Positions 12,110 to 44,742 of a DNA stretch of 46,247 nucleotides are shown piece after piece. Position numbers and translations under genes: made by a program. The DNA is from a virus. A model generated the notes under the pieces. It was not told the DNA's origin. It did not search any database and saw only the letters and a list, made by a program, of their open reading frames with translations. Location of the stretch: IMG/VR virus record IMGVR_UViG_3300020396_000011, positions 1 to 46,247 of that record; one strand, given 5' to 3'. Position 1 is the stretch's first letter; every line of letters starts with the position of its first letter.

Positions 12110-12819
12110 CCACTTTTCCTTGGTTGCGCTGGCGCACCTTTTTCAGCAGCGGCCTGTTTTAACCATTTTTTACCAGCAGCATTAGACACAGGTTTTTTAG
12201 TCAACTTTGCTAAATCTTTAAATCCTCTTTGAGCATCACGTTTCCAATCTTTTCCTTCAGAGTTATCAACAATGATGAAATTATTTTTAAAGGCACTTTG
12301 ATATTTTCCTAAGTTATCTTGAACACCTTTCCACATTTTTGTTACGTTTTCTACACCAATAGTTCTATCTCTATCCTTATCTCTTTGTATTGCAGTCTCA
12401 AGATTTGTATTTACAAAAACCATTGCTGTGTCATAACCTAGTTTATCAAACATTTTTTTCTGCTTCATTATTTTATCATAATCCTTACCAGTACCATCAA
12501 TAATAATACCTAACCTACCTTTGATATAGATTTCTTTCTGTTTATCCGTAAGTGCTAATGCTTTTAGTCTAATTTCTTGCCCTTTATCAGACCAAATATC
12601 TTCTGGCGTAGTAGACATACCTGCTTTTTTTAGTAAGTTTTCATATGCGGTATCAATATTTGACACTCTCAATCCCATTGCCAATAGTCCTAAATGACCT
12701 TTACTATTTGACGTTGCAATAAATGATTTTCCTGAACCTGGCCCACCAGCAAGAAAAACTGCTTTGAAAATTCCGGGATCATTAAGTCCTTCTGATAGAT
12801 AATTTTTAAAACTTTTCAT
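12106..12819 (-). CDS. P-loop kinase (zeta-toxin/polynucleotide-kinase-like) with capsid-targeting-like N-terminus
   Basis: 237 aa. Walker A is GGPGSGKS (25-32) after VFLAG. IIIDGTGKDY and VFVNTNLETAIQRDKDR (lid arginines) are typical of zeta-toxin and small-molecule or nucleic-acid kinases. Residues 1-10 (MKSFKNYLSE) match the T4 capsid-targeting sequence pattern of internal proteins (MKTYQEFIAE) with a possible prohead-protease site after Glu10. The substrate is unknown. Context with a ligase-like and a cytidylyltransferase-like protein suggests nucleic-acid end processing, which is inference. Confidence 0.75.
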   Translation of the reverse strand: MKSFKNYLSEGLNDPGIFKAVFLAGGPGSGKSFIATSNSKGHLGLLAMGLRVSNIDTAYENLLKKAGMSTTPEDIWSDKGQEIRLKALALTDKQKEIYIKGRLGIIIDGTGKDYDKIMKQKKMFDKLGYDTAMVFVNTNLETAIQRDKDRDRTIGVENVTKMWKGVQDNLGKYQSAFKNNFIIVDNSEGKDWKRDAQRGFKDLAKLTKKPVSNAAGKKWLKQAAAEKGAPAQPRKSG

Positions 12820-34287: not shown

Positions 34288-34735
34288 CTGACGATTCCAA
34301 CATAACTAACTGAAACTTAATTATAATAGATGAAACTAAACCAGCAAGGGTTGTCATCAATGCAATGCCCATACCAGACGCAAGTGTACCTATCACTGCC
34401 TTCATTGCAGATGCACTCGTAGTGTCAACATTCGTGAATGTAGTCGTTAAAACTAATAAGAATCCAATTAATGTTCCAACCATACCTATAGACATTACAA
34501 CATCAGATGAAAACCATAAAAAGTCTGTGTTCCTATTGTTTTCATATGTAAACTGTTGACGCCAACTCTCAATACCAATCTTTAAAGTGGTAATAATAAA
34601 AATAAATCCAATCAAAAAAGTAATGCGTGAAGCATCCTTCTCATATACAAAATTAAATACCAAATATTGATATTGTAAAAATGTACCAAATAAACCTAAC
34701 AAGACAATGCTTGTCCACCATTTCCAAAATGCCAT
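34274..34735 (-). CDS. ExbB/TolQ/MotA-like proton channel protein
   Basis: 153 aa, with membrane helices at ~8-28, ~38-55, ~80-97 and ~113-145. SIGMVGTLIGFLLVL (82-96) and ASGMGIALMTTLAGLVSSI (119-137) are the signature of TolQ/ExbB channel helices, including the conserved threonine and glycines. With the ExbD-like partner it should form a pentamer-dimer proton channel in the host inner membrane. The protein is short (ExbB ~240 aa) and lacks a large cytoplasmic domain. Confidence 0.75.
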   Translation of the reverse strand: MAFWKWWTSIVLLGLFGTFLQYQYLVFNFVYEKDASRITFLIGFIFIITTLKIGIESWRQQFTYENNRNTDFLWFSSDVVMSIGMVGTLIGFLLVLTTTFTNVDTTSASAMKAVIGTLASGMGIALMTTLAGLVSSIIIKFQLVMLESSDEKV

Positions 34736-44174: not shown

Positions 44175-44182
44175 TATTTATA
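44175..44182 (-). promoter_or_regulatory. T4-type late promoter (TATAAATA)
   Basis: Exact octamer, 27 nt upstream of ATG 44148, immediately after the tmRNA terminator. Confidence 0.85.
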
Positions 44183-44185
44183 TAC

Positions 44186-44212
44186 AAAAAAGGAAGAGTG
44201 ATTAACTCTTCC
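44186..44212 (-). terminator. Intrinsic terminator of the permuted tmRNA unit
   Basis: Minus strand GGAAGAG-TTAATCA-CTCTTCC (7-bp perfect stem) followed by TTTTTT. Confidence 0.9.
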
Positions 44213-44219
44213 TCTTAAT

Positions 44220-44405
44220 AAAATGTGATATAGTGTCACTTTTCTGTTGCTAGGTAAGTGACCAACCCCCTTAATTATGCAGCGAGTGCGTAACCAGAAG
44301 GTGCAAAATTATCGTTTGCATTTAGTATTTTCTTCGCGTTAACCCAGCTAAGTACGGGGAAGTCTCCATTTTCCTATCAACACCTGTCTATCCTATTTCA
44401 TCCCC
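44220..44405 (-). ncRNA. ssrA: tmRNA coding piece (permuted, two-piece tmRNA)
   Basis: 5' end GGGGATG (44405-44399) is the 5' strand of the acceptor stem and pairs with CATCTCC in the acceptor piece. GGATAGACAGG corresponds to the conserved GGAUUCGAC segment. GTTGATA pairs with TATCAAC of the acceptor piece (helix P2). The A-rich run and CTAAATGCAAACGAT precede the resume codon as in bacterial tmRNAs. The tag reads ANDNFAPSGYALAA then TAA. Downstream is a GTGA/TCAC hairpin and the terminator. tmRNA rescues stalled ribosomes by trans-translation with SmpB. The 3' boundary is approximate. Confidence 0.9.
44275..44319 (-). other. tmRNA tag-peptide reading frame (ANDNFAPSGYALAA)
   Basis: Fifteen codons: GCA resume codon through GCA TAA. 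The ANDN start and the ALAA end are the hallmarks of proteobacterial SsrA degradation tags recognised by ClpXP/ClpAP. Confidence 0.92.
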
Positions 44406-44406
44406 A

Positions 44407-44595
44407 TCATAAAGAAACTGAACCTAAAGGTTTACAGATATATTTAACTGTATCCCAATGACCATCATTCGGTAATTCTGTATATTCTATGAGCATAGTT
44501 TCACACTTCAATTTAGTCTCAAACTGTTGTACATCTTGCTCTAAACAAGTTGATCCAGAACAAACTGTGAGTAGTATTTGCCAAATAATTTCCAT
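44407..44595 (-). CDS. Small exported protein encoded inside the tmRNA intervening segment
   Basis: 62 aa with AAGGATACTAAAGAATG as ribosome site. The hydrophobic N-terminus (MEIIWQILLTVCSGSTC) looks like a weak signal. C-x22-C with DGHWDTVKYIC resembles the plus-strand gene at 40813-41091. Its ATG lies 15 nt after the acceptor-piece CCA, and its stop ends one base before the coding piece. The mRNA and the tmRNA precursor therefore share one transcript, and tmRNA maturation would cut out exactly this message. Function unknown. Confidence 0.65.
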   Translation of the reverse strand: MEIIWQILLTVCSGSTCLEQDVQQFETKLKCETMLIEYTELPNDGHWDTVKYICKPLGSVSL

Positions 44596-44610
44596 TCTTT
44601 AGTATCCTTA

Positions 44611-44670
44611 TGGTGGAGATGCGTGGTACTGCCCCACGGTCCAGTATGCATCAAGTTGATATCATCAACT
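44611..44670 (-). ncRNA. ssrA: tmRNA acceptor piece (permuted, two-piece tmRNA)
   Basis: Minus strand 5' to 3': TATCAAC (44661-44655, P2 3' strand), then a 5+7+5 T-arm CGTGG-GGCAGTA-CCACG (44638-44622), CATCTCC (44621-44615, acceptor 3' strand with one G-U against GGGGATG), A discriminator and encoded CCA (44613-44611). The T-loop GGCAGTA departs from the usual TTCGAAT. The 5' end coincides with the expected start from the late promoter at 44678-44685. An extra stem GTTGAT/ATCAAC at the 5' end could compete with P2. Confidence 0.82.
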
Positions 44671-44677
44671 ACATTTT

Positions 44678-44685
44678 TATTTATA
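44678..44685 (-). promoter_or_regulatory. T4-type late promoter of the permuted tmRNA
   Basis: Exact TATAAATA about 8 nt upstream of the first tmRNA-like nucleotides, so transcription would start at the acceptor piece itself. Confidence 0.85.
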
Positions 44686-44742
44686 TCATAAATTTTGATT
44701 CTTGTCAATAGAGAAATAGTTTTTATTGACCTTTTTAACAGA

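Follow-up and report, generated by a model that had tools for sequence, protein, structure and literature searches.

A conserved protein gene nested in the spacer of a permuted two-piece phage tmRNA

The two-piece tmRNA described here carries a conserved gene for a 62-residue protein in the spacer that would be discarded as its two pieces mature. We put at roughly three in four the probability, judged from comparative sequence analysis, that this tmRNA belongs to a marine T4-like phage, is expressed late and comes from a precursor that would also serve as the messenger RNA for the spacer gene. The tmRNA is intact, the open reading frame (ORF) is nested within it in a fixed geometry, the protein is conserved and the spacer cargo is exchanged between phages. 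The arrangement is found in nearly every long spacer that we surveyed in related viruses and has apparently not been described before; we found no report of protein genes in permuted tmRNA spacers in the open-access literature. As for two-piece tmRNAs as such, 53 have been counted in phage genomes, 50 of them of marine or aquatic origin (PMC9004378), so the tmRNA alone is not new.

The tmRNA and its nested gene

The window, i.e., the whole 46,247-nucleotide stretch of DNA analysed, is a 46-kb virus contig with T4-like genes such as a homologue of T4 RNase H. A circularly permuted two-piece tmRNA occupies positions 44672–44275 of its minus strand (Table 1). The permuted order is matched over the full length of two covariance models, tmRNA_permuted (RF04321; 95.9 bits, E = 1.7e-17) and alpha_tmRNA (RF01849; 83.8 bits, E = 2.3e-21), and ARAGORN calls a tmRNA* at 44184–44705 with the tag ANDNFAPSGYALAA; no further Rfam family was found in the window at the gathering threshold. 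These full-model matches bear out the original prediction, which had been made from the letters alone and had named a covariance-model search as one means of checking it. The late-promoter motif, encoded CCA, G1, tag and terminator likewise lie where it had placed them, the pairings GGGGATG/CATCTCC (acceptor stem) and GTTGATA/TATCAAC (P2) are in the sequence, and the mature ends that it gave, 44405 and 44611, are consistent with it. The acceptor stem comprises seven pairs, with an encoded CCA, and includes the alanine identity pair G3–U70; in a comparison of two spacer-length classes, with 35 and 117 distinct sequences, this pair is invariant. P2 forms between the pieces, and the tag frame has the alanine resume codon GCA and a hydrophobic end. 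The prediction thus stands as far as a permuted tmRNA with a late-promoter motif on a T4-like phage contig is concerned, which is an already published kind, but it took the 205-nt spacer for a plain intervening segment, and this is in fact a protein gene under purifying selection.

Table 1 Features of the tmRNA locus in the window
Feature	Position	Strand	Basis or remark
T4-like late-promoter motif TATAAATA	44685–44678	−	Sequence; upstream of the tmRNA
Acceptor (tRNA-like 3′) piece, ending in encoded CCA (44613–44611)	44672–44611 (5′ limit that of the model match)	−	RF04321 match, ARAGORN
P2 strand TATCAAC, acceptor piece	44661–44655	−	Sequence; pairs with GTTGATA 44381–44375
CATCTCCACCA of acceptor piece	44621–44611	−	Sequence
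Spacer (intervening sequence), 205 nt	44610–44406	−	Bounded by CCA 44611 and G1 44405
Spacer-end helix, 5′ strand TAAGGA	44610–44605	−	Overlaps AAGGA 44609–44605; pairs with TCTTTA 44415–44410
Nested protein gene, 62 aa and stop (MEIIWQILLTVCSGSTCLEQ...), filling the spacer	44595–44407	−	Translation; relatives; pN/pS; predicted fold
Spacer-end helix, 3′ strand TCTTTA	44415–44410	−	Helix general to these tmRNAs
Conserved UGAU before G1: nested stop and probable RNase P leader	44409–44406	−	UGAU in 30/35 and 94/117 distinct sequences
Coding (mRNA-like) piece, starting GGGGATG; GGGGATGAAATAG from 44405	44405–44232 (end approximate)	−	RF01849 match, ARAGORN
P2 strand GTTGATA, coding piece	44381–44375	−	Sequence
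Tag reading frame ANDNFAPSGYALAA and stop, resume codon GCA	44319–44275	−	ARAGORN, sequence
Intrinsic terminator, stem GGAAGAG...CTCTTCC, then T run	44212–44192	−	Sequence

Late expression is supported by the motif TATAAAT, which precedes 91 of the 142 permuted tmRNAs from phages against a background of 3%, mostly 74–77 nt before the CCA end. No SmpB was found in 18 phage contigs, the window included, and it is the host SmpB that would therefore be used. A second TATAAATA sits directly past the terminator at 44182–44175 (minus strand), facing a conserved downstream gene of 191 codons (44148–43573, minus strand); the latter has no Pfam match, and homologues occur at many tmRNA-bearing loci, usually close by.

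The nested gene takes up almost the whole spacer: the Shine-Dalgarno-like AAGGA begins 2 nt past the CCA, 9 nt separate its end from the ATG, and a single nucleotide lies between the UGA stop and the mature G1. Scanning viral contigs yielded 44 relatives of this ORF. It is nested in 17 loci including the window (L004–L007 and L009–L020). In all of these the CCA end precedes the ATG by 15–16 nt, and G1 is at +190. Elsewhere the ORF immediately precedes the acceptor piece (L002, L003, L008, L032–L038 and L042–L045) or sits further upstream of the tmRNA (L022–L027, L029 and L036). The nested copies vary mainly at synonymous sites, and this low ratio (pN/pS 0.25) together with the homologues outside tmRNAs marks the ORF as a protein gene. 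In a tree of the 62-residue ORF the nested label changes 3 times, compared with 8.5 times in shuffles, indicating that the nested state is clustered and has switched only a few times. At one further locus (L021, 2910–3183) the 62-residue ORF follows a tRNA-Thr at the CCA-to-ATG spacing of the nested form, with no tmRNA found there, which possibly hints at recombination between tRNA-like 3′ ends. We found no cultured phage that carries the window ORF in nested form, and ARAGORN found no tmRNA in the isolate-genome contigs among the matches.

AlphaFold2 predicts a β-β-α-β fold for the protein with a pLDDT of 87. Since Foldseek returned no match to this fold at E ≤ 0.001 in the PDB or BFVD, we claim no function for it; Pfam and PHROGs assigned none to the ORF, and a role as a small accessory protein or one for host takeover is a guess. 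The window contig also carries a gene for an SbmA/BacA-type peptide transporter (32066–31086, minus strand; PF05992, E = 2.4e-131), and in L008 the end of apparently the same gene precedes a free copy of the 62-residue ORF.

A gene selected on its own account could in principle outlive its setting, with the tmRNA decaying and being kept merely as a frame of promoter, structure and terminator for the nested protein, the more so as the host is expected to possess a tmRNA of its own. We regard this as very unlikely, because the acceptor stem, G3–U70, the tag frame and the tag end are all intact in the nested forms, and spacer-free relatives retain the tmRNA.

Protein genes in the spacers of related tmRNAs

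The survey covered 223 distinct phage permuted tmRNAs (143 in a first sample and 80 in a second) on viral contigs, assembled by motif scans and from loci found via the window ORF; apart from that of phage Melnitz, the nested examples come from metagenomic contigs that are often fragments. We scored an ORF as spanning when it covered at least 70% of the spacer and took the expectation from dinucleotide shuffles. Of the 58 spacers 138 nt or longer, 56 had a spanning ORF, where 2.7 were expected. The set is not a random sample, since it depends on conserved tmRNA motifs being matched exactly and on the window-ORF loci, which contribute the 13 members of the window family; 43 of 45 long spacers have one when those loci are left out. 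The first sample had already suggested the rule when the second was drawn, and only around half of the long spacers in the second agreed with our first, narrower definition. That definition was widened after seeing the data to admit ORFs running into the coding piece, with the shuffles scored in the same way. The excess declines as spacers become shorter, to 13 of 36 spacers of 100–137 nt (4.6 expected), 8 of 56 at 60–99 nt (5.6 expected) and none of 73 below 60 nt.

The 56 spacer ORFs fall into about 15 unrelated families, the largest, in distinct members, being that of the window (13), MKN (13), MFKW (7), MDFHW (4), MSEE (4) and MWIYK (3). In all eight nested families tested pN/pS is about 0.2–0.4, and ORFs that extend into the coding piece are similarly constrained (MFKW 0.18–0.33; L424/L433 0.33). 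Among the other nested ORFs the sole near match in Pfam is to DUF2061 (PF09834, E = 1.8e-4, just under the cut-off), and tblastn searches with three of them returned no phage record. One of the two long spacers lacking an ORF that starts with ATG, GTG or TTG, the 194-nt spacer of L147, has one frame open throughout to the UAG of GAAAUAG and, being open over its full length, may contain a gene that begins at an unusual start codon. Isolates of phages other than T4-like ones (L299–L308) have spacers of about 93–111 nt with no convincing ORFs where the scan resolved them. A scan with a host-like tmRNA pattern, which was too strict, returned only four unrelated records.

An objection to a coding role is that the phage permuted tmRNA is an ordinary one whose spacer is non-coding, with chance frames ended by the stops built into UGAU/GGGG and GAAAUAG. 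Such stops do lie near G1 in two of the three frames, and spacers below 100 nt show no excess of ORFs over their shuffles. This reading does not account for the purifying selection on the protein in eight families, the free-standing homologues outside tmRNAs or the near-universal ORFs of the long spacers, and we consider it extremely improbable. In a split gene for a non-coding RNA, the spacer, otherwise a discard, is a recurrent home for protein genes, which annotation that treats tmRNA as non-coding will miss.

Cargo exchange and comparison with known systems

Several loci differ in cargo while agreeing in their surroundings. The coding piece of L008, whose 28-nt spacer has no ORF, is 96% identical to that of L067 and L131, whose 140-nt spacers hold an MDFHW gene, so that these form an empty and filled pair; the coding piece of L057 is 93% identical in the same comparison. 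Conversely, the MDFHW ORFs of L117 and L067 share 96% DNA identity, but their acceptor pieces only 63% and their coding pieces 75%. The gene downstream of the window tmRNA is kept in L057, L067 and L131 (82% amino-acid identity) with a different cargo in the spacer, and seven nested families have free relatives in other phages, often adjoining a tmRNA. Capture of neighbouring genes and their exchange by recombination would be the simplest account, and such empty and filled sites offer a view of how small genes are taken up and swapped by phages.

The window tmRNA shares with the families RF04321 and RF01849 the order acceptor–spacer–coding, the encoded CCA, G3–U70 and the tag frame. However, the consensus spacer of both families is a few tens of nucleotides with no gene, rather than a 205-nt conserved protein gene. 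A close comparison is with the Methylophilales phage Melnitz, a myophage of OM43 with a two-piece tmRNA (PMC9004378), which like the window combines a marine T4-like phage with a permuted tmRNA of the alphaproteobacterial type. Melnitz encodes a homologue of the nested protein (64% identity) outside its tmRNA, directly upstream, whereas the ORF in its spacer is a different, unannotated one (MFKWL...) that extends into the coding piece by 42 nt. No glutamine riboswitch was found in the window by Rfam at the gathering threshold. An early promoter was favoured for the Melnitz tmRNA (PMC9004378), but the late motif TATAAATA is present upstream of it as well.

Group I intron tmRNAs likewise house a protein gene in a segment of the tmRNA gene that maturation removes: a LAGLIDADG gene lies within a self-splicing intron of the T loop (PMC11915505). 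The window tmRNA has no intron and uses the spacer of a permuted gene, and the spacer proteins are small and diverse. Membership in this class of standard-order tmRNAs with an intron-borne homing endonuclease gene was considered for the window tmRNA and rejected on the permuted order, the uninterrupted T arm and the lack of a Pfam match for the nested ORF. The same survey, with its 11,946 permuted sequences, mentioned a single tRNA and a single repeat element within the spacers, and no ORFs (PMC11915505).

Processing and translation of the precursor

The ends of the spacer can pair in a helix that adjoins the acceptor stem. In long spacers 90% of its pairs are canonical, compared with 71% when partners are re-dealt; in the window it is short, at 6 bp. 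Its 5′ strand holds the Shine-Dalgarno-like sequence in the window family and in MKN, MAKY and MDFHW; the MKN ORF begins further along and has a second sequence of this kind. The helix also occurs in spacers without ORFs and is thus a part of precursor folding that did not evolve for translation control. The fold of the whole precursor strand is not more stable than its shuffles (z = −0.93) and is therefore left out of the evidence.

The position of the stop codon defines three classes. In 29 of the 56 spacer ORFs it is the UGA of the conserved UGAU/GGGG junction, in 14 it lies inside the mature tmRNA, at the UAG of GAAAUAG or deeper (+13, +33 and +42), and in 13 it falls further inside the spacer. 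We had taken the fixed stops (−1 and +13) for a sign of selection and dropped this argument, as these positions are conserved tmRNA sequence and provide no independent evidence. Their placement nevertheless means that cleavage before G1 would leave a message that ends at its stop or has none.

For Escherichia coli RNase P, A(−2)U(−1) is the optimal leader dinucleotide and pairing between leader and CCA slows cleavage (PMC9433436). A conserved A(−2)U(−1) precedes G1 in these tmRNAs, and it is from this dinucleotide, the slowing of RNase P by such pairing and the spacer-end helix that we infer an either/or fate of the transcript.

We tentatively propose the following course of events. Transcription from TATAAATA would yield a single precursor ending at the terminator. 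Ribosomes loading at the AAGGA that closely follows the CCA could make the 62-residue protein and stop at the UGA that overlaps the UGAU/GGGG processing site. Alternatively, folding of the acceptor stem and the spacer-end helix would hide the Shine-Dalgarno sequence, and cuts before G1, by RNase P, and after the CCA would release the tmRNA, so that one transcript would become either message or tmRNA and the two uses would probably exclude each other. The phage tmRNA might then, with host SmpB, rescue ribosomes stalled late in infection, while the spacer would offer coding space under a late promoter and a cargo site at which neighbouring small genes are captured and exchanged. This provides a testable case of one transcript acting as mRNA or as ribosome-rescue RNA, and phage control of trans-translation late in infection becomes open to experiment.

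It is also conceivable, though on balance unlikely, that the nested genes reflect mere packing in a compact genome, with precursors translated first and processed later, and with no switch or mutual influence. Phage genomes are compact, the helix is present without ORFs too, and some families stop well within the spacer or start past the helix, all of which would fit. Against this, the 14 stops inside the mature tmRNA mean that cleavage at G1 must truncate the message, and in the class to which the window belongs a ribosome at the stop would be expected to cover the cleavage site. We prefer the reading in which message and tmRNA are competing fates of the transcript.

A bolder extension, which we hold to be rather doubtful, is that the split tmRNAs of marine T4-like phages are dual-function RNAs whose nested message is terminated or cut short as the rescue RNA matures. 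With a stop inside the mature tmRNA, each processed transcript would give rise to a nonstop fragment that the very same RNA could tag. Such self-tagging would imply that the nested protein is produced chiefly when processing of the tmRNA, or rescue, falls behind. The arfA gene of E. coli follows a like logic.

Elsewhere in the window, a zeta-toxin-like P-loop kinase domain is encoded at 12819–12106 (minus strand; PF06414, E = 2.1e-10), and a MotA/TolQ/ExbB-like protein at 34735–34274 (minus strand; PF01618, E = 6.3e-7) lies beside a gene with no assigned function.
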